Positions 6,604-36,542 of a stretch of 48,140 bases of DNA are shown in pieces. The stretch spans positions 1-48,140 of the forward strand of contig JANXDX010000025.1 of the NCBI GenBank assembly GCA_025058735.1, in the 5' to 3' direction. This stretch comes from Archaeoglobaceae archaeon (GTDB lineage: Archaea; Halobacteriota; Archaeoglobi; Archaeoglobales; Archaeoglobaceae). Every line of letters starts with the position of its first letter. The first letter of the stretch is position 1. The notes beneath the pieces are model-generated. The model saw nothing but the letters and a program-made list of their open reading frames with translations, made no database searches and was not told the DNA's origin. The position numbers were made by a program, and so were the translations under genes.

Positions 6604-7716
6604 ATGAAATTCACCGATACTACTAAGTATCTAATTCACGCTGAAATGATTGCAGATGGCGTTGTAGAAAAACCAGACGTTATTGGAGCCGTATTTGGAC
6701 AGACAGAGGGATTACTTGGTAGTGATTTGGATTTAAGAGAGCTTCAAAAAACTGGAAGAATTGGAAGGATAGAGGTGAAAGTTGAAAGTAAAGGTGGTAA
6801 AAGTTTTGGTGAAATAAAGATACCATCCAGCTTAGATAAAGTAGAGACTGCTATAATAGCTGCGGCTCTAGAAACTATAGAAAGGATCGGCCCTTGTTCA
6901 GCAAAAATAAAAATTATAAAAATAGAAGATGTAAGAGCTAGCAAGAGGAAAAAGATAGTCGAGAGAACGATGGAAATACTAAGAGAGCTTTTTGAAGAAC
7001 CAGAGATCGAATCCGAAAAGATAGCCGAAATTGTTAGACAAGCTGTGAAAGCTGAAGAAATCATAGAATATGGAGAAGAGAAACTACCTGCTGGACCGGC
7101 GATAGATGAGAGTGATGCTATAATAGTTGTTGAAGGTAGAGCTGACGTTTTGAATCTTTTAAAGCACGGAATAAAAAATGTTATAGCTGTAGAAGGTACG
7201 AACATTCCTAAAACAATAATAGAGTTAAGCAAAAAGAAGACAATAACAGCTTTTCTAGATGGAGATAGAGGAGGAGATTTGATTTTGATGGAACTTTTAC
7301 AAGTTGCCGATGTAGATTACATAGCAAGAGCTCCTGAGGGAAAAAGTGTTGAGGAATTAACGTTGAAAGAAATTTTGAAAGCTTTAAGAAACAAGATACC
7401 AGTTGAGCAGTTGAAGAAAGTGGAGGAGAATGGAATCAGAGATCTTGTAGAAAAGGTTGAGGGAAAACTGATGGCAAGAATCTTAGACAAAAACATGAGC
7501 TTAATAAAAGAAGTACCAGTTAGAGACTTAGTAAAAACTCTAAAGACTGACAACTTGCCAAAGAATACAACAGTAGTTCTTGACGGTGTTATAACTCAAA
7601 GACTAGTTGATGTTGCTGCGAAAAAAGAAGTTAGTTGTTTGATAGGAGTAAAGATAGGGAGCATAGTAAAACTTCCGACGAGTGTAAAGATCATGACTTT
7701 CGATCAGATACTTTAA
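6604..7716 (+). CDS. dnaG: Archaeal DnaG-type primase
   Basis: Archaeal DnaG, 370 residues, with the conserved opening [19 protein letters not shown] and [14 protein letters not shown]. The Toprim domain is in the middle, with [12 protein letters not shown] (catalytic Glu) and FLDGDRGGD (acidic metal site). Archaeal DnaG has primase activity and also binds the exosome as a poly(A)-preferring RNA-binding subunit. I place the start at the ATG at 6604, 7 nt after a strong GGAGGTG, rather than an upstream in-frame GTG at 6565. The last 26 bp overlap the convergent cmk gene. Confidence 0.96.
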
Positions 7717-8230
7717 ACTCTAAAGCCTTTATCACAATCTCTGCAATCTCTTCAGCTGTAAACTTTCCCGAATTTATTATCAAATCGTAGATGCTCACGT
7801 CTTCAAGATCGATTCCGTAAAACTTTTTATACCTGGTTTTTTCTAATTCTTCTCTCATTTTAGTCTCAGACTTAACAACAGATATGTCTTTTCCTTCTCT
7901 TTTTGCGATCCTCTCATATCTTATTTCTTCGTTTGCAAAAAGCCAAATTTTTAAGTTAGCATCTTTTATGAACCATCCTGAAAGTCTACCTTCAAAGATC
8001 GCATCTTTTTCCTTTTCAGCCAACTCTTTCTGCATCTGATCGATCTTGTTATCTATCTCCGGGTTCTCTTCTGCAAACTTGCTAAACTCTTCAAGAGTAA
8101 GACCTCTTTGCTCCGAAAATTTTCTAAAAATTTCACCAGCAGATATGAACTTTAGGTTTAATTTTTTAGCCAAAATTTTACCAACTGTAGTCTTTCCAGT
8201 ACCAGGCAGTCCTGAGATCGTGATCTTCAA
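7691..8230 (-). CDS. cmk: Cytidylate kinase, archaeal type
   Basis: Phosphorylates CMP/dCMP to the diphosphate with ATP. The Walker A motif is [13 protein letters not shown], followed by a SAGEIFR segment, GRLSGWF and the lid Arg residues ([12 protein letters not shown]). I choose the TTG at 8228-8230, which gives the family's usual opening [13 protein letters not shown] and 179 residues; it overlaps the upstream stop as TTGA and has AGGTGGG just before it. This is the last gene of the ribosomal superoperon and converges on dnaG with a 26-bp overlap. Confidence 0.92.
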
Positions 8231-26392: not shown

Positions 26393-27631
26393 ATGATCTT
26401 AGCTAAAGACTTTGATGAAGCAAAATCTTTGCTGACTTCAAAAGTATTGAAAAGTAAAAAATCTTGCAGATCTCGCTTTGGTAATTTTATTTACTCTGAG
26501 CCAACTTTGGTTGTTCTTGAAAAAGTAGAAGATTTGGAAATTGACAGAAGCAGTATCTACTTTAGAACATATGAAAAAAGATTCGAAGAACTCTTTGAAG
26601 TTGCTGAAAAAAAGTTAAAAAATTCTCCTTATACTAGAAGAGTTTCAATACCTATCTGGAGACCAGAAGATCACTACAGTGAAAATCCACCGGCTATAAC
26701 AGAGATTTCTTTTCTTTTTGACGGCGAGTTGCATTTAACAGCTTACCTTAGATCTTTAGAAGTTCTAAGGTACTTTGAACATGATTACGGATTTTTATCT
26801 TACTGCCTGCAAAGGATGAGTGAAAGGACTGGAATGAAAGTTGGAACAATTGCTATGCTTTTAGCAATTCCCCATGTTTATGAGAGGGATGTAAAGGTAG
26901 AAAATTTAGAAACTGATTTTTCAGAATTTTACGGTTATAACAAGTTTGCAACGCACATAGTTGAGGATTACATATCTTCGGCTTGGCATTCGGCTTTAGA
27001 ATTTATTTATAAGTATGGAAAAATGAAAAAAACTGAGTGGGAATTTGAAAAACAAAAAGAATCTCTTTTTGTTCATAGAATGTTTATAGAAGTTAAAAAA
27101 CCTGAAGAAAACGTTTTACATGATAAAGCTCCATTCGATCTAAAGTACGCTATCGACTATACCATGGAATACGTTTTGTACGACTCATTCGATAAACCCA
27201 TAAAAACTGGTTTTCTGAAGGGTGAAGAATATAGTTATGCAGAGAGAGCTAGGTTCTGTGAAAAAGATAAAATAAAAGTTGATCAGCTTTATGAAGCAGT
27301 AAAAAAGCTTAAAGACTATAGAAGAGATTGCTACGTCTGTATTTCTAGACCTTGGGATCTTGAAAGTTCAGATCCTCCATGTTTGAGAGGTTACCAATTT
27401 TTCAGAGATGAGAAAGTTTCAGGAATTTTTTACATGAGATCGAACGATGTTTACGGAGCTATGCATGCAAACATGTTTGCCTTCTCAACTCTAACGAAAT
27501 TGATAGCTGATTACTTTGGATCGAAGCACATTTACTATCACTTTGCAGTAGATGCTCACGTTTATCAAGGTTCACTAGATCTGGTCAAAGAAATTTTGTA
27601 TGGTCGACCAAAACGTTCATTCTTTAGCTAA
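26393..27631 (+). CDS. Tandem thymidylate-synthase-like protein
   Basis: 412 residues with two related halves. The second holds thymidylate-synthase marks: catalytic-type Cys in DPPCLRGYQFF (C330), phosphate-binding FYMRSNDVYGA (R349, S350) and VDAHVY (387-391). The first repeats the pattern with equal spacing but without the Cys: NPPAITEISFLF (A101), AYLRSLEV (R120, S121), IPHVY (159-163). PP-to-RS spacing is 21 residues in both halves and RS-to-HVY 41 versus 40. It may make dTMP from dUMP as a single-chain dimer with one active site. No Shine-Dalgarno precedes the ATG; probably leaderless. Confidence 0.75.
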   Translation: MILAKDFDEAKSLLTSKVLKSKKSCRSRFGNFIYSEPTLVVLEKVEDLEIDRSSIYFRTYEKRFEELFEVAEKKLKNSPYTRRVSIPIWRPEDHYSENPPAITEISFLFDGELHLTAYLRSLEVLRYFEHDYGFLSYCLQRMSERTGMKVGTIAMLLAIPHVYERDVKVENLETDFSEFYGYNKFATHIVEDYISSAWHSALEFIYKYGKMKKTEWEFEKQKESLFVHRMFIEVKKPEENVLHDKAPFDLKYAIDYTMEYVLYDSFDKPIKTGFLKGEEYSYAERARFCEKDKIKVDQLYEAVKKLKDYRRDCYVCISRPWDLESSDPPCLRGYQFFRDEKVSGIFYMRSNDVYGAMHANMFAFSTLTKLIADYFGSKHIYYHFAVDAHVYQGSLDLVKEILYGRPKRSFFS

Positions 27632-29583: not shown

Positions 29584-30204
29584 ATGTTACTCGTAGGTGA
29601 GGGGGATGATCTAGAACCTCCAGACAGTTTTCTTAAAAAGAAACCTAAGTCAGATGTTCTGAACCTTGTCGGTGATTACAGGTTTTTGACCGTTGGATAT
29701 TTTGTTTCGCTTCATGCGGAAGAAAACGGTTGTAAAGTTTTTCCACAAACAAAAGATGCGCTCGATATTTATAGGGCGGCTGTTTTTATCGAAAGATTGA
29801 AAAAATCTGGTATAAAAGTTCCAGAATTCAAGATAATTTATAAACCAGAACCAGAAACATGTGTACTAGCACCTATGAACCCTTTTTCTAAAAACTCTGT
29901 TAAGATTGTTAAAAATGATTATCAATATATAAAAGCTTTTAAAAAAATAGGAATCGGGAAATATCCAGTAGTACAGCTGAAAGCTGATAAGGTTGAAGAG
30001 GTTAAGATCTTTTTAAATAAAGCCGACAAAACTGAATTTGATTGGCTTGCTAGAGCTATTTTTAAAGAATTTGGTGTACCACTTGGAAAAGTTTTAATAG
30101 CAGATGATTACAAACCTTTCTACTTCATGCCGATAGAAAAAAAAGAAATAAGGTTAGATTTGATCTTTGAGGAGCTAAAAAATGAGAATAGGCTGTTTTG
30201 TTGA
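29584..30204 (+). CDS. RLAN-domain protein (RimK-like ATP-grasp N-terminal domain)
   Basis: 206 residues resembling the RLAN domain that precedes RimK-type ATP-grasp domains in longer bacterial proteins. Visible: MLLVGEGDDLEPPDSFLKKK, DVLNLVGDYRFLTVGYFVSL, a LHAEENGCKVFPQTKDAL stretch, then an SYNTHETASE-like tail with DWLARAIFKEFGVPLGKVLI. Here the domain is a separate gene that overlaps the ATP-grasp gene by 23 nt, so the two proteins are probably made together and form one enzyme. GGGGAT lies 5 nt before the ATG. Catalytic role of RLAN is unknown. Confidence 0.75.
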   Translation: MLLVGEGDDLEPPDSFLKKKPKSDVLNLVGDYRFLTVGYFVSLHAEENGCKVFPQTKDALDIYRAAVFIERLKKSGIKVPEFKIIYKPEPETCVLAPMNPFSKNSVKIVKNDYQYIKAFKKIGIGKYPVVQLKADKVEEVKIFLNKADKTEFDWLARAIFKEFGVPLGKVLIADDYKPFYFMPIEKKEIRLDLIFEELKNENRLFC

Positions 30205-31045
30205 ATCATACAATTTTAAGTTTAAAGAAGAGGCAGAAGCTCTTCAAATATTCGTAAAAACTGCAAAAAAAATGGGTCACGAACTTGAATTAGTTGGAAA
30301 AGAGATCTTAAGAAAAATGGACAAATATGATTCAATTTTTATTAGAGCAACGACAGACCCTCTGTTAACTGCTTTTGTTGTTTCAAGATTGGCTGAAGAG
30401 ATGGGCAAAAATGTTATAGATGATTCAGAAAGTATAAGGATTTGTTCTGACAAAATATCTTTACACTACAAGTTTCAGAAAAACGAGATACCTACTCCAA
30501 AAACAATTTTATTTTTTGGAGATTATGAAAATTTGGAGGATTACGCTGAACAGCTAGGTTATCCTGTAGTTGTGAAAAAACCGAACTCAAGATTTTCTCT
30601 CTACGTTGAAAAAGCAAACAATTATGAAGAACTTTTAAGTATTACTAAAAAATTTATGAGGAAGTGTAGAGCAGTTCTACTTCAGGAATACATTCCAACA
30701 AACTTTGACTGGAGAATTGGTGTTCTAAGAAACAAACTTCTTTATGCTTGCAAGTATGTGATGGCGAAAGGTGCTTGGAAAATACACGATATAGTAAATG
30801 GAAGAAGAGTTTATTGTGACGTTAAAGCAGTGAAAGTTGATAATTTATCATTAAAACTGAAAAATGTAGCTTTAAAGGCTGCAAAAAGTGTTGGCGATGG
30901 ACTGTATGGAATAGATATCAAAGAAGTGAATGGAAAGTTTTACGTCATAGAGGTTAACGATAACCCCTCTATAGGACATGGATGGGAAGATAGGAAAAAT
31001 CCTGAACTCTATGAGGAGATACTAATTGCATTAACTGAAACATAA
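30182..31045 (+). CDS. RimK-type ATP-grasp ligase
   Basis: 287 residues of ATP-grasp fold, RimK group: LRKMDKYDSIFIRATTDPLL in the pre-ATP-grasp region, DSESIRICSDKISLHYKF, the nucleotide-binding YPVVVKKPNSRFSL, LQEYIPTNFDWRIGVLR and the metal site DIKEVNGKFYVIEVNDNPS (E257, N259). RimK-type enzymes join a carboxylate to an amine through an acyl phosphate, often adding glutamate. GAGGAG precedes the ATG inside the RLAN gene. The acceptor molecule is unknown; the convergent GCS2 ligase suggests a peptide-like metabolite. Confidence 0.88.
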   Translation: MRIGCFVESYNFKFKEEAEALQIFVKTAKKMGHELELVGKEILRKMDKYDSIFIRATTDPLLTAFVVSRLAEEMGKNVIDDSESIRICSDKISLHYKFQKNEIPTPKTILFFGDYENLEDYAEQLGYPVVVKKPNSRFSLYVEKANNYEELLSITKKFMRKCRAVLLQEYIPTNFDWRIGVLRNKLLYACKYVMAKGAWKIHDIVNGRRVYCDVKAVKVDNLSLKLKNVALKAAKSVGDGLYGIDIKEVNGKFYVIEVNDNPSIGHGWEDRKNPELYEEILIALTET

Positions 31046-31120
31046 TTTTTGTTAACAAATTTCTCAAAAACTATTTAAATCTTCTAGTATATTCTATTTG
31101 CAGAAATTTTCGGTGGTTCT

Positions 31121-32258
31121 ATGATCAGCAAACTGTTAGCATGCGAAACTCTCATCGGTATCTCTTGGGGAGTTGTACTTAGCATATACGCTCCAACTTT
31201 AGTAGCTAGCAGTGTTTCTTATTCTTTAGCAATGATTTTTGCCACTCTATCTTCAATAGTAGCTTCTATCTTAACGGGTTTAGCTTTAAGCAAAAAGATC
31301 AACTTGATGCCACTAGTTTCTATAGCACTGATTTTAGCAACGGTGTGCGATGCAAAATGTTTGCCATTTCTCATAGGATTTGCAGTTGGAGTACATGGAG
31401 TCTACGTTGTCTACGTTTCGGGTGCAAAAGAATTTAGAGGTTACTCTCTATCTTACTCTCTAAGTCTTTTTGGGATATCTTTAGGAGCTATACTCTTTAT
31501 CCTTGGAATTCCAAAAGAAATTCTAGCTTTGTTATCTTTAGCTGGAGTTTTTTATCCAGAAGTTGTAAAAAAGACAGATAGAAGAGAAGAGAGCAGAGTA
31601 CCTCTAGCTATAACACTACTTCGGCGTAGCTGTAGGCTTTTCAGCTCTTAACATAGATTACTACGTTTTGTTGAAATTCGACATAAGTGAAAAAGATCTG
31701 GCTTTACTACTTTCAATAGGTTCAATAGCGGCCGCATTCTCAACTGTAGCATTTTACAGATTTATAAAAAATTACACTAAAGCTCATTTCTTAAGTATAG
31801 CTCTGCAGGCAGTTCTATTTCTACTGATTGCAGCAATCCCAGTATTTTTAATAGTAATTTTACTATACGCTATCAGAGAAGCATCTTCAATATTTGCAGA
31901 AGCTACGCTAGATACAGTACTACTCAAAGATAGCAGTGGGATCAAAATATCTGAATTCTTTATACTTTGGGAAATCTCTACTGGTATAGGAAAAGCTTTT
32001 GGTAGTTATCTGGCAGAGTACAGTCTATCTTTACCACTTATCTTAGCCTCTATAACTTTTTTTGTCTATCTCTTAAGTATTCGCAAAGATTCAATTCAAA
32101 AACTTTCTCTATTTCGTACTCTTCAACCTTCAAAATCTCTTCAAGTTCAGATCTATCTAGATCTAGTATCAATCGTACTATGTTTTCTAAAGCTCTACAA
32201 AGTTGCTCCTCGTACAACTTTTGATCCTCTTTTAACAGAGAAACCAGTGGACATATAG
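31121..32258 (+). pseudogene. MFS-type transporter, interrupted by a frameshift
   Basis: A multi-helix transporter in two frames. Frame one (31121-31651) gives about five helices from MISKLLACETLIGISWGVVL and ends falsely at 31651. From about 31612 the following frame continues HYFGVAVGFSALNIDYYVLL with further helices to FFVYLLSIRK near 32090. One missing base around 31610-31648 would restore a single frame. The second frame then runs on, antisense to the YkgJ gene, to 32258, so its natural end may also be lost. GGTGGT precedes the first ATG. It could be a real pseudogene, a sequencing error or recoding; it would export or import a solute. Confidence 0.6.
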
Positions 32259-32547
32259 TAGGTTTTTTTATATAGATCTCTAACTTTTCGTTTTTCAAAT
32301 CAAAAGTAAATGGACCTGCAACGCAAGTTTCAGGCTTTACATTGTGAACAGAACATTTTCCATCGATAAAAAATATGCAAAATCCATCTTCTCTGACTTT
32401 TGGATATCTATATTTTTTATACTCGAAGTTTTCTAACTTTGCTCCAGCGTTCAGTAGTATTTCCAACCTTCTCTTCGTAATTGGAGGTTTCGCATCTTTA
32501 CAGCAAATCCCTCCACATTTGGAGCATATAAAGTAGAAATCTGTCAT
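32050..32547 (-). CDS. YkgJ-family cysteine-cluster protein
   Basis: 165 residues of the YkgJ/UPF0153 family, whose Cys residues bind zinc or iron-sulfur. The cluster is FICSKCGGICC (C8, C11, C15, C16) with GFCIFFIDGKCSVHNVKPETC (C57, C65, C75), read here in its key residues. Function is unproven. Its ATG overlaps the GCS2 stop (ATGA), which makes it the third gene of a permease-GCS2-YkgJ operon. Its 3' third overlaps the run-on frame of the transporter. Confidence 0.85.
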   Translation of the reverse strand: MTDFYFICSKCGGICCKDAKPPITKRRLEILLNAGAKLENFEYKKYRYPKVREDGFCIFFIDGKCSVHNVKPETCVAGPFTFDLKNEKLEIYIKKPTICPLVSLLKEDQKLYEEQLCRALENIVRLILDLDRSELEEILKVEEYEIEKVFELNLCEYLRDRQKKL

Positions 32548-33638
32548 AAAAACACCTTATTTTTTTCTAAACATTTAGATAGCTTCAAATAAATTCTTAA
32601 AATTTCATCTCTATCGAAATTTTTAATTTTTTCAACTATCCTTTCAGAAACGGCTCCATTTTTTATCTTCTCTTTCACAATTCTTAGATATCTCCTCTCC
32701 TCACAGTCAGCATTCTTGATAGCGACTTTGTAAAGTTCTTTAAGCTCATCTCTTAAAGCTAAAGTTCCATGCTTTATAGCTAGATCAATCCTCTTTAAAA
32801 TTTCATCTCTGTTCATCTCTTTTATATCTGCTCTGATCAAAGATCTTATGAATGCTGCAACAGCTACATCACTCTTAATACACTCCTGCTCATCCATTAC
32901 CTTTATCTCCAAACATTTCCTTGTAAACCTGAAGATTACGCCTCTTGAATTTACCCACTCTCCACAAAGAACTTCTGCACCTCTTTTTCTCAGTTCTTCA
33001 TATATTCTTTCTAAAATCACTTTGTACTCTCCGATCGAACTTATTCTTTCTGGAACTATGTCGTTGCAGATAATTGGAATTTCTTTCTGGTTTATTCTGT
33101 AGAAATAAAGCCTAGAGCTTGCAAAAAAACGCTTACCTTCGCATATCGGTGACGATGAAGCTAGGGCTGCTATATAAGGAAGAAGAACTGTTAGCTTGTT
33201 GTGCAATTCTATAGCCTCTTTTTCGTTCTTGTAACGCAAGTTTAGCTGAAAACTTTGAATGTTTACCCATCCATGCTGTTTAATATTGAAAAGTCTGTCG
33301 TAAGTTTCGTAAAGTATTCTATCTCTATGATCCCAAACCTTGGCATCTTCAGGTTTTAAAAACGGATGCATTCCAGTTCCAATTAATCTAGAATCTAAAT
33401 AGCACATGAGTTCTTGAAGACCTTCAAACATAGTATCTTCAAATTCTGATAAACTTTGAAAAGGCTCTGTAGGTTTCAACTCGATCACGTGTTTTTGTAA
33501 CTCTTTTCCAACACAAACTTTTGAAAGCTTTGCCTCGTTTGCAAACCTTCCGCGGATTTTTTTTATCAAAAGATCAGCTATTGGCATAGGTTTTAGTTCA
33601 TCATCTACTATCATGAACTCGTGCTCAGGGCCGATCAT
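32544..33638 (-). CDS. GCS2-family carboxylate-amine ligase
   Basis: 364 residues of the glutamate-cysteine ligase family 2 (YbdK-like). The metal-binding acidic residues sit in IGPEHEFMIVDDEL (E5, E7) and in HVIELKPTEPF (E53); GWVNIQSFQLNLRY and LPYIAALASSSPICEGKRFF are further family blocks, with CLEIKVMDEQECIKSDVAVA late. The family forms a gamma-type amide between a glutamate-like carboxylate and an amine. Bacterial homologues occur beside RLAN-RimK genes, as here, so the two ligases may act in one pathway. It is coupled to both neighbours by ATGA overlaps. Confidence 0.83.
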   Translation of the reverse strand: MIGPEHEFMIVDDELKPMPIADLLIKKIRGRFANEAKLSKVCVGKELQKHVIELKPTEPFQSLSEFEDTMFEGLQELMCYLDSRLIGTGMHPFLKPEDAKVWDHRDRILYETYDRLFNIKQHGWVNIQSFQLNLRYKNEKEAIELHNKLTVLLPYIAALASSSPICEGKRFFASSRLYFYRINQKEIPIICNDIVPERISSIGEYKVILERIYEELRKRGAEVLCGEWVNSRGVIFRFTRKCLEIKVMDEQECIKSDVAVAAFIRSLIRADIKEMNRDEILKRIDLAIKHGTLALRDELKELYKVAIKNADCEERRYLRIVKEKIKNGAVSERIVEKIKNFDRDEILRIYLKLSKCLEKNKVFL

Positions 33639-34840
33639 AGTAAGTACAGCAGTATATCACCAGCTATTACACTTAAAACAGTTACTGGAACTCCGACCTT
33701 TAGGTATTCACTGAAAGTCACAACAACTCCTCTCCTTGCAGCACTTTCAACGACGATCAGGTTTGCAACACTACCTATTATCGTTAAGTTCCCAGCAAAA
33801 GTTGACGCCATCGCTAGCAAATACCATATATCTCCACCGATCGATTTTGCAGCTGGAATAGATAGCATAACAAATGGAACGTTGCTAACTAAATTGCTTC
33901 CAACTACGGTTAGCATGGAAATGTAAAGATATGATTCAAAAGATCCGGTGAATTTGAAAGCTTCCAAGATCAAGTTTCCATAGTATTTTTCAAAAGCATG
34001 AGTTACTATAAACAAGTTGCAGAACAAAAGCAAAAGCCCCCAGTCTACTCTATCCAAAACTTCCTTTGGATGTCTTCCTCCGATCAAAAATAGAGCAGTT
34101 GCACCGATCATCGCAGATAAACTTATTGGATAAATTTCTGTTATAAAAAAAATCAAGACCAAAACAAAAACTGCAAGACTCTTTTTTGCAAGATTTTTGT
34201 CAAAATAATAACTACTTTCTTCATACACAACTTCTTTGTGTAAATTTTTTTTATATAAAAAATATATAATAAAAAATGCTATAATTAAGCCAGCCAAGCT
34301 CGACGGTAAAACGTTTATAACAAATTCTACAAAGTTAATTTTTGATGCAATTCCTATAAGCATGTTTTGTGGATTTCCTACAATAGTAGCTGCGCTCCCA
34401 ATGTTAGCAGAGACTGCTAAAGCTATAAGTAAAGGTATTGCGTTTATCTTCGATATAGAGGAAATTCTGAGTATAACTGGAGTCATAAAAACGCAGATCG
34501 TATCGTTGACGAATAGAGCTGATAAAAAACCTGAGGAAAATATGATCGTTGCGAGTAACTTTTTACCGTTTTTTGCAAACTTCAAGATCTTGTAAGCTAA
34601 GAAATCGAAAAACCCTGAAATTCCTAGGTAAGCTACAATTATCATCATACCTAGAAGTAACATTATTGTATGAAAATCTATAGATAAAAAAGCTTCATCC
34701 AAAGTTAGAGCTCCAGAGACTAATATTAGAGTAGCTCCAATAGTTGACGCCGCAGGTCTTCCAAACTTTTTAGATACGCTTTGAAAGGATAGAAAAGCAT
34801 AAGTTAGAAAGAATATGATCAGTACGGCTAGATCGATCAT
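33635..34840 (-). CDS. ArsB/NhaD-type (ion transporter superfamily) permease
   Basis: 401 residues, about 11 membrane helices. Family features: ASTIGATLILVSGALTLDEA, the paired re-entrant SALFVNDTICVFMTPVILRI and SANIGSAATIVGNPQNMLIG, and the second-half copy SNLVSNVPFVMLSIPAAKSI. This superfamily moves anions or exchanges Na+/H+ (ArsB, NhaD, P-protein, CitM). I choose ATG 34838-34840, six bases after GAGGAG, over an upstream TTG. As first gene of the operon with GCS2 it may move the substrate or product of the ligase; that is inference. Confidence 0.85.
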   Translation of the reverse strand: MIDLAVLIIFFLTYAFLSFQSVSKKFGRPAASTIGATLILVSGALTLDEAFLSIDFHTIMLLLGMMIIVAYLGISGFFDFLAYKILKFAKNGKKLLATIIFSSGFLSALFVNDTICVFMTPVILRISSISKINAIPLLIALAVSANIGSAATIVGNPQNMLIGIASKINFVEFVINVLPSSLAGLIIAFFIIYFLYKKNLHKEVVYEESSYYFDKNLAKKSLAVFVLVLIFFITEIYPISLSAMIGATALFLIGGRHPKEVLDRVDWGLLLLFCNLFIVTHAFEKYYGNLILEAFKFTGSFESYLYISMLTVVGSNLVSNVPFVMLSIPAAKSIGGDIWYLLAMASTFAGNLTIIGSVANLIVVESAARRGVVVTFSEYLKVGVPVTVLSVIAGDILLYLL

Positions 34841-34921
34841 AACGCTCCTCAACTCGGCATATGAACTAGCTGAGTATTTAAGCCTTTTTGATAATATAAA
34901 AAATGTTCAAAAAAGTATTTT

Positions 34922-35935
34922 TTACTCTAAAACAACTATTGCTGAAGGATTCTTAACTCTAACAGTTAAAGCTTCACTTACTAGAAAAGCGATTTGTTCA
35001 CCTTCAGGTCCAAGTTCTTTCAAATCTATCTCTTGTCCAACCACAACATCTAAAACAGAAGGTGTATTTGCGAAAACTATAGCCTTTTCTGTATTAGGAG
35101 TAACTATTATCCCCCCTCTGAAGATCTCTTTTAAAATTTCGATCAACATTTTCCCACTCTTTTCATGTACCTTTAGTAGTTTTGAGAAGCGTTCTGGATT
35201 AATTATTATTGCAAATGGTCCACTAGAAACCTTTGAGACTTCTGATAGAGCACTCATTATACTGTTTAAAGCATCATCACCTTCCCAAGATGGAACTTTT
35301 ACAACTTTCCTGTTTGAGATCATCTCATCTACTACAAGCTTTTCTTCTCTTCTAACTAAAATTTCACCAGCCTTAGCAGCTAGTGCAACGTCGTAAGATC
35401 CATCGGTCAACTCTCTAATTCCAACGTAGAACTTCTCAGTTAGCAGTGGTATAGCTTTGTATACGTGTTCTAAAACTCTCACTCCATCTTGCAAGCCAAT
35501 TACGTCAACTCTTACAGACTGTCCTACTACTTTTGTTTTTGGTAAGTACTTCATCAAAACTCTCGATCTTTCAACAGACTCTACAAAAGCCCTTTTTAAT
35601 ACGTTTAAGTAACTTGAGTTGTTTTTTTCCACGTTGGATTCTGTTTTAATTCCCGTAAGTTCTTCGACTTCTTTAAATCCTTCTCTAAACTTTTCGACCT
35701 GTTCTGGATCTAAGTTGAAAAGTAAAGACATGAATTCACCGACATGAACTTTTTCCTCTGCAGCAACATCTAAAAATACCTTCTTAAATCTTTCATCTTC
35801 CGTATATCTAGCCATCTGTTCATAAAGGTTTACAGCGTCAAGTTCTGCTATAGCTGCTAAGCGAAGAGCTTCCATTAGTTCTTCTTTCGAATAAGGCTTG
35901 TCTCTACTTATAAGAGTAGGATTTATCGCAAGCAT
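34922..35935 (-). CDS. Encapsulin with fused N-terminal ferritin-like domain
   Basis: 337 residues closely resembling the Pyrococcus furiosus virus-like-particle protein (about 345 residues). Residues 1-97 are a ferritin-like helix pair with metal ligands in AELDAVNLYEQ (E31) and AAEEKVHVGEF (E61, H64). From about 118 follows the HK97-fold encapsulin shell: YLPKTKVVGQSVRVDVIGLQ, PLLTEKFYVGIRELTDG, GPFAIIINPERFSKLL, MLIEILKEIFRGGIIVTPN and ending SEALTVRVKNPSAIVVLE. It would self-assemble into a nanocompartment that oxidises and stores iron inside. A rubredoxin and a winged-helix regulator lie just upstream. Confidence 0.95.
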   Translation of the reverse strand: MLAINPTLISRDKPYSKEELMEALRLAAIAELDAVNLYEQMARYTEDERFKKVFLDVAAEEKVHVGEFMSLLFNLDPEQVEKFREGFKEVEELTGIKTESNVEKNNSSYLNVLKRAFVESVERSRVLMKYLPKTKVVGQSVRVDVIGLQDGVRVLEHVYKAIPLLTEKFYVGIRELTDGSYDVALAAKAGEILVRREEKLVVDEMISNRKVVKVPSWEGDDALNSIMSALSEVSKVSSGPFAIIINPERFSKLLKVHEKSGKMLIEILKEIFRGGIIVTPNTEKAIVFANTPSVLDVVVGQEIDLKELGPEGEQIAFLVSEALTVRVKNPSAIVVLE

Positions 35936-36290: not shown

Positions 36291-36542
36291 TCAACCACCG
36301 TAGGCTAAATCTACGCCATTTTCAGTTAAATATAGTTTTCCATCTTTTTCGATTACGAAACCTTCTGAGATCAAGTATTCCAAGTTAAACCTAAATTCAA
36401 ATTCAGAAATGTTTGGAACCCTCTTTCTTAGTTCTTCCCTTGTAATTCCTTCACTCGAACTGCCTATAGCTTCTGCAAGCCTTTTTCTTATAGGATTCAT
36501 AGCTGCTTTAAATAAACGCTCATGGTGTTCTTTATCTCTCAT
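36291..36542 (-). CDS. Winged-helix DNA-binding regulator
   Basis: 83 residues; a compact winged helix: [40 protein letters not shown], the recognition region around [19 protein letters not shown] and the wing [14 protein letters not shown]. It is likely a transcription regulator of its own operon (with rubredoxin) and possibly of the encapsulin gene. Four CGATTTT/AAAATCG boxes lie just upstream and overlap its TATA box. The signal it senses is unknown; no Cys is present, so metal or thiol sensing would need another route. Confidence 0.8.

Follow-up and report, generated by a model that had tools for sequence, protein, structure and literature searches.

The locus between positions 29584 and 34852 of the window, the 48,140-nucleotide stretch of an Archaeoglobaceae genome that was analyzed here, raises the question of whether two amidoligases encoded on opposite strands belong to a single system, and of what that system might make. 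On the plus strand, a gene for an RLAN protein of 206 aa (29584-30204; PF14401, 53.3 bits against a cut-off of 25) is followed by one for a RimK-type ATP-grasp amidoligase of 287 aa (30182-31045; PF08443, 59.7 bits). A sequence-only reading of this DNA had claimed a 23-nt overlap between the two, and the coordinates place it at 30182-30204. The minus strand carries a CitMHS/ArsB-superfamily permease of 405 aa (33635-34852; PF03600, 229.9 bits), a GCS2-family (glutamine-synthetase-like) amidoligase of 364 aa (32544-33638; PF04107, 172.1 bits), and a YkgJ/CxxCxxCC protein of 165 aa (32050-32547; PF03692, 39.3 bits). The ATGA overlaps said to join these three genes are indeed there, represented by TCAT at 33635-33638 between permease and GCS2 and at 32544-32547 between GCS2 and YkgJ. 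The arrangement is more than chance, as the same genes are found together in dozens of archaeal genomes.

We surveyed a sample of 394 genomes of the phylum, the counts from which are not independent of phylogeny, and RLAN was present in 57 of them; 50 of the 51 genomes with GCS2 and all 48 with YkgJ fall among these. Searching with PF14401 alone overlooks ten divergent methanogen RLANs, which are recovered by a cassette profile. Both RLAN and GCS2 occur in 50 genomes, RLAN only in seven, GCS2 only in one, and neither in 336, while the corresponding numbers for RLAN and YkgJ are 48, nine, zero, and 337. In 46 of the 50 genomes that have both, no more than 3.4 kb separates the start of the RLAN match from that of the GCS2 match, and essentially neither GCS2 nor the YkgJ subfamily of the cassette was encountered without RLAN, the exception being one genome that is 73% complete. 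The two ligases are therefore strongly co-conserved, in keeping with the earlier proposal that they act in the same pathway, and the view that the RLAN/ATP-grasp and GCS2 ligases form one unit is supported. Operons containing all four genes were found in the Archaeoglobaceae, the Methanomicrobiales/Methanothrix, and the Bathyarchaeota, and gene order varies among them, indicating that the association outlives rearrangement. Within the Archaeoglobaceae, the set is present as a block in genus g1, G019, and G135 and absent as a block from G010, G012-G015, G017, G020, G022-G024, and others; in four members of the genus, GCS2 is located on a different contig from RLAN. The 23-nt coding overlap is retained in G000, G019, and G005. 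There are also genomes in which GCS2 and YkgJ are missing beside RLAN and ATP-grasp (Methanocella-type genomes, Methanoperedens, and one f23 genome), suggesting that the first pair can work alone.

The separation of RLAN from ATP-grasp and its archaeal setting had been regarded as unusual, but the split form is the normal one in archaea. The two are separate genes as a rule at about 60 archaeal loci, while in bacteria an RLAN-RimK fusion of about 490 aa lies beside GCS2. On a tree, the archaea, with a small number of bacteria nested within their group, are set apart from the bacteria by a single change between split and fused forms; a second change counted on this tree corresponds to one GC-rich artefact ORF (L170). 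The idea that the split is a quirk of the window genome was accordingly discarded. Amidoligase systems with RLAN-RimK and GCS2 gene neighborhoods in bacteria were reportedly described by Iyer et al. in 2009, and our own finding of such neighborhoods shows that the link to the archaeal cassette is real: RimK-type ATP-grasp and GCS2 are side by side in both, and the RLANs are homologous (hhalign 99.3% and E 1e-20 for archaeal versus bacterial N-termini). Compared with the bacterial neighborhoods, the archaeal cassette differs in its separate RLAN, its added YkgJ, and, in some genomes, its CitMHS permease, whereas the bacteria have the fusion together with C39-like peptidase and FGase genes. A Pfam scan of the genes surrounding the locus in the window detected neither of these last two, and both family clusters are absent from the archaeal loci that were clustered. 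In our preferred reading, which we consider reasonably likely, the cassette represents an archaeal form of the RimK-GCS2 amidoligase pathways already described, to which a Cys-cluster protein, probably of the Fe-S type, has been added.

To our knowledge, descriptions of RLAN have so far gone no further than a domain whose role is unknown, and none of the papers searched dealt with it or with the RLAN/ATP-grasp/GCS2/YkgJ cassette. A PDB sequence search with RLAN gave nothing significant. When its AF2 model (pLDDT 92.7) was compared with the PDB using Foldseek, there were 314 matches at E ≤ 0.001, and the best 50 of the 314 were all ATP-grasp enzymes; for Ddl, LysX, ArgX, and RimK, E-values reached down to 2.5e-7 with TMq of about 0.45-0.64. 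The profile score of RLAN against its partner ATP-grasp was 38.4, compared with 26.9 for the best of 150 column shuffles and 12-14 for controls with a reversed profile and unrelated families. It is the N-terminal half (residues ~39-146) that aligns above all 150 shuffles, with an hhalign probability of only 60%; sequence homology of the C-terminal half to the partner was also tested, and no similarity was found. At the RLAN position facing the ATP lysine of the ligase (K132), none of 18 sequences has a lysine, so RLAN would be at most a pseudoenzyme. Because a predicted ATP-grasp fold and a weak N-terminal similarity to the partner are combined with the loss of this lysine, we believe that RLAN is probably a pseudo-ATP-grasp subunit. 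It had previously been pictured as a piece severed from an enzyme, a view that is probably wrong given that its predicted fold itself resembles an ATP-grasp protein. This combination also makes the role of RLAN testable.

Both ligases have conserved active sites. In the ATP-grasp protein the active-site and catalytic residues are conserved in the alignment, and the nearest solved relatives by PDB sequence search are ArgX (3vpb, 60 bits), LysX, and RimK. Ligases such as LysX/ArgX, RimK, CofF, and MptN form amide bonds, usually with glutamate, and they have fold and family in common with the window protein, which differs in its pairing with RLAN and in scoring under every equivalog cut-off (best 94.5 bits, against 275.6 for LysX); nor was a LysW gene noticed next to it. 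GCS2 likewise shares PF04107 and a conserved acidic site with the YbdK/GshA gamma-glutamyl ligases. The metal site proposed for it is supported by residues E5, E7, E53, E244, and D249, which are invariant and also present in E. coli YbdK, as judged from the alignment. In contrast to the YbdK/GshA enzymes, the window GCS2 has near-obligate partner genes; it is 21% identical to E. coli YbdK, scores 49.7 bits where the subfamily cut-off is 176, and falls under all cut-offs of the glutamate-cysteine ligase (GshA) models. Its only PDB match by sequence was a plant glutamate-cysteine ligase at a non-significant E of 0.03. As both ligases are far under every NCBIfam equivalog cut-off, no substrate can be read from their sequences.

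YkgJ had been listed merely as an operon mate. It is one, but it had been given no role, while our counts show that it is co-conserved as tightly as GCS2 and, since all 48 genomes with YkgJ carry RLAN, that it is part of the system. Eight cysteines are conserved in its alignment (C8, C11, C15, C16, C57, C65, C75, and C99), making a metal or Fe-S protein probable. The cysteine motif type is common to FliB and other CxxCxxCC (PF03692) proteins, and FliB has a [4Fe-4S] cluster and catalyzes methyl-group transfer (PMC8598068). Unlike FliB, the window protein is small and single-domain, with its eight conserved cysteines. A PDB sequence search with YkgJ gave nothing significant, and a fold search against the PDB gave no match at E ≤ 0.001. 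One alternative is that the cassette modifies proteins, with the RLAN/ATP-grasp enzyme attaching an amino acid such as glutamate to a protein, GCS2 adding a side-chain glutamyl group, and YkgJ acting as target or regulator. Ribosomal protein S6 is glutamylated by RimK, and the solved proteins closest to the ATP-grasp protein all act on a protein C-terminus; a small, strictly co-conserved, putatively metal-binding protein that retains an acidic IEEPET-like motif near its C-terminal end would also suit such a role. The C-terminus itself is not conserved, however, and lacks an acidic tail such as a LysW-like carrier would have, and the ligase pair occurs without YkgJ in Methanocella-type genomes and Methanoperedens, so we regard protein modification as unlikely.

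The transporters bear on a further alternative. An MFS-like gene does follow ATP-grasp on the plus strand (31121-32258), as had been claimed, but three-frame translation shows that it is not intact: it is a single hydrophobic gene in two pieces (31121-31651 and 31668-32258) with frame shifts near 31616-31622, and its 3' end overlaps YkgJ antisense. Neither piece had a match in a Pfam scan. Either pseudogenization or a sequencing error may account for the break; the gene is probably not a working part of the cassette, and the frameshift led us to reject it as a functional member. Seven Archaeoglobaceae genomes, including that of the window, have the CitMHS-type permease immediately upstream of GCS2, and it also adjoins the cassette in G094 and G148, making it a recurring partner found in only part of the genomes. 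Its weak similarity to ArsB, along with the cysteine-rich YkgJ, could be taken to indicate a glutathione-like thiol pathway, in which GCS2, a member of the family of gamma-glutamylcysteine ligases, would make gamma-glutamylcysteine or an analogue, the ATP-grasp protein, which resembles peptide ligases, would add a third residue like GshB, YkgJ would handle the thiol or a bound metal, and the permease would export metal or arsenite. We find this improbable, as the permease is a far better match to CitMHS than to ArsB (229.9 versus 49.4 bits), GCS2 is distant from YbdK and reaches no glutamate-cysteine ligase cut-off, and the bacterial relatives neighbor FGase and C39-like peptidase genes rather than redox genes. 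Equally doubtful is that the RLAN/ATP-grasp enzyme and the permease-GCS2-YkgJ operon have two separate functions and are neighbors by chance. In favor of this, they lie on opposite strands in the window, RLAN and GCS2 are apart in G001, G003, G006, and G007, and RLAN and ATP-grasp stand alone in Methanocella-type genomes and Methanoperedens; against it, both GCS2 and this YkgJ subfamily almost never lack RLAN, and several lineages have single operons with all four genes.

In the amidoligase pathway that we prefer, the RimK-type ATP-grasp protein, whose translation would be coupled to that of RLAN and which would form a complex with it, would first use ATP to activate a carboxylate as its acyl phosphate, and would then link this to an amine. 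RLAN, having lost the ATP lysine, may keep the second substrate in place or in the right orientation, or give the dimer its shape. GCS2, the other ATP-dependent ligase, whose acidic site is intact, would next form a further amide; the precedent of its family suggests that this is on the gamma-carboxyl of glutamate. The YkgJ-type protein, its eight cysteines probably holding a metal or Fe-S cluster, may act on or carry the product, and in those genomes that have it the CitMHS-type permease may move an anionic substrate or product. The cassette product would be a small compound, probably containing glutamate, that is moved. It is tempting to speculate further, though only tentatively, that RLAN is a paralogue of its partner and that the two form an obligate enzyme/pseudoenzyme heterodimer, present in bacteria as a tandem fusion, which together with GCS2 builds a glutamate-containing compound on or with the Fe-S YkgJ in an unrecognised cofactor-like pathway of Archaeoglobaceae, methanogens, and Bathyarchaeota. 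That two ligases and a cysteine-cluster protein are strictly co-inherited in three archaeal lineages speaks for an archaeal metabolite or modification that has not yet been described, and the cassette supplies a defined set of genes whose deletion strains could be examined by metabolomics.

Genes for deoxyhypusine synthase were also observed in some of these genomes. G014, which is without RLAN, has two copies, and G000 has one, located elsewhere; in G009, in Bathyarchaeota, and in G135, where a pyruvoyl arginine decarboxylase accompanies it, the gene is found near the cassette, which offers a weak lead toward a polyamine link.

In the window, part of a 1.22-Mb archaeal genome that is 99.8% complete, the genes, coordinates and overlaps described in the sequence-only reading at 29584-34840 proved right, as judged from the sequence and a Pfam scan. 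RLAN (29584-30204, +) and a RimK-type ATP-grasp ligase (30182-31045, +) have 23 nt in common, the second gene starting inside the end of the first, and facing them are a CitMHS-type permease (33635-34852, -), GCS2 (32544-33638, -) and a YkgJ/CxxCxxCC protein (32050-32547, -), with ATGA overlaps joining GCS2 to both neighbours. The "transporter" 3' of the ATP-grasp gene did not hold up: it is a single MFS-like gene whose two pieces (31121-31651 and 31668-32258, +) lie in different frames, with the break near 31616-31622, and we leave it out of the working parts. The 3' end of this broken gene (31121-32258, +) runs antisense into YkgJ. The gene immediately upstream of the permease operon, likewise on the minus strand (34922-35935, -; Linocin_M18, 62.7 bits), encodes an encapsulin shell protein with an N-terminal ferritin-like domain and an EncB-type N-terminus, and a small winged-helix protein is encoded beyond it (36291-36542, -). 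The thymidylate synthase of the window (26393-27631, +; 412 aa) carries ~190 residues ahead of its match to the archaeal family model.

Using cassette-derived profiles, we searched 394 genomes of the phylum and found RLAN in 57, GCS2 of the cassette subfamily in 51 and YkgJ of the cassette subfamily in 48. RLAN and GCS2 occurred together in 50 genomes, RLAN alone in 7, GCS2 alone in 1 (a genome only 73% complete) and neither in 336; for RLAN and YkgJ, the corresponding counts were 48, 9, 0 and 337. The Fisher values of ~1e-53 ignore phylogeny and are descriptive. More telling is that the cassette is kept or missing as one block in Archaeoglobaceae, and that RLAN and GCS2 matches start <=3.4 kb apart in 46 of the 50 genomes, in several gene orders. 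The archaeal co-occurrence of RLAN, RimK and GCS2, which the sequence-only reading put forward as a check, is borne out. That the RLAN/ATP-grasp pair and the GCS2 group serve two unrelated functions is a rival to be set beside these counts and beside the Methanocella-type genomes and Methanoperedens, which carry RLAN and ATP-grasp only (in Methanoperedens with an adjoining GNAT gene).

RLAN itself is probably a degenerate ATP-grasp, as suggested by a single structure prediction and a weak similarity in sequence. An AlphaFold2 model of the window protein, built from 18 archaeal sequences (pLDDT 92.7), had 314 Foldseek matches in the PDB at E <= 0.001, and the best 50 of these were all ATP-grasp enzymes. 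Matches included D-Ala-D-Ala ligase (2.5e-7), PsnB, LysX, ArgX, RimK and carbamoyl phosphate synthetase, with query TM-scores of ~0.45-0.64 and high rmsd (4-8 A). In an independent comparison, a 109-sequence RLAN profile matched the partner ATP-grasp profile with a score of 38.4 (P 8e-5, probability 60%), against 26.9 for the best of 150 column shuffles, 12.0 for the reversed profile, and 14.3 and 12.1 for the unrelated GCS2 and YkgJ. With archaeal-only profiles, RLAN ~39-146 aligned to ATP-grasp 62-180, placing the ligase ATP lysine K132 (in VVVKKPNSRFS) opposite the RLAN segment VLAPMNPFSKNS; the lysine is absent there in all 18 RLAN sequences, and no sequence alignment was found between the C-terminal halves. 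We rejected the idea that RLAN is the missing half of the enzyme, because a pre-ATP-grasp part and an ATP-grasp part are both present in its partner.

RLAN, RimK and GCS2 were reportedly associated in bacteria by Iyer et al. in 2009. With few exceptions, RLAN and ATP-grasp form one bacterial protein of ~490 aa, often encoded beside GCS2 and accompanied by genes for a C39-like peptidase and an FGase, whereas archaeal loci have two separate genes. In a tree built from 108 ATP-grasp domains and an outgroup, one split/fused change divides the archaeal and bacterial groups; an apparent second change at locus L170 was a long GC-rich ORF, in our view an artefact. Transfer is suggested by a few bacteria (Calditrichaeota, Planctomycetota, Trueperaceae) that are nested within the split forms of archaea. 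Because the outgroup branch is very long, the tree is effectively unrooted and fits fission or fusion alike. In one Calditrichaeota locus (L102), the split genes are followed by a GNAT fused to a C39-like peptidase (DUF3335; 6875-7984). Three points are apparently new: the set of four genes that includes YkgJ in archaea, how this set is distributed, and the reading of RLAN as a pseudo-ATP-grasp; we found no mention of them in the open-access literature, the part that was searched, so an earlier description is possible.

We propose that the two ATP-dependent ligases, the RimK-type ATP-grasp and GCS2, would act in one pathway, with the pseudo-ATP-grasp subunit RLAN assisting the first, the cysteine-cluster protein YkgJ either working on the product or serving as its carrier, and the anion permease joining in some genomes. 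The ATP-grasp keeps its family motifs (K91, K132, E143, R178, D245, E257 and N259, invariant in 18 sequences). GCS2 retains E5, E7, E53, H91, E244 and D249 in archaeal and bacterial sequences and in YbdK of E. coli, which is a matter of kept acidic residues in the alignment, as distinct from a structural metal site. Both ligases fall far below all equivalog cut-offs, so that glutamate as a building block would follow from family precedent only; a glutathione-like thiol is a rival product. Another rival is protein modification with YkgJ as the target. YkgJ has eight conserved cysteines in the alignment, and an Fe-S cluster is plausible by likeness to FliB, in which related motifs hold [4Fe-4S] (PMC8598068).

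The gene order is RLAN-ATPgrasp-GCS2-YkgJ in four genomes (G004, G005, G008, G009) and RLAN-ATPgrasp-YkgJ-GCS2 in methanogens; the two pairs face each other in the window and in the genomes G019 and G135, and are divergent in Bathyarchaeota. The permease is a looser partner: it adjoins GCS2 in the genome of the window (G000) and in G002, G003, G006, G007, G019 (broken), G135 and G148, and adjoins ATP-grasp in G094; the cassettes of G004, G005, G008 and G009 showed no permease. The G019 permease (L015 12141-13339) is split over two overlapping frames and the G001 GCS2 (G001:C67:8990-10076) is in two pieces, through decay or sequence errors. Directly after YkgJ in G004 and G005 is a small winged-helix gene (L017 6813-7064, L020 10650-10901), and the winged-helix protein near the cassette is a possible regulator. 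Deoxyhypusine synthase lies near the cassette in three lineages (L164 5053-6570 in G135, where a pyruvoyl arginine decarboxylase accompanies it; L022 2952-3947 in G009; and L083-L094), and the genome of the window has a single copy, away from the cassette.
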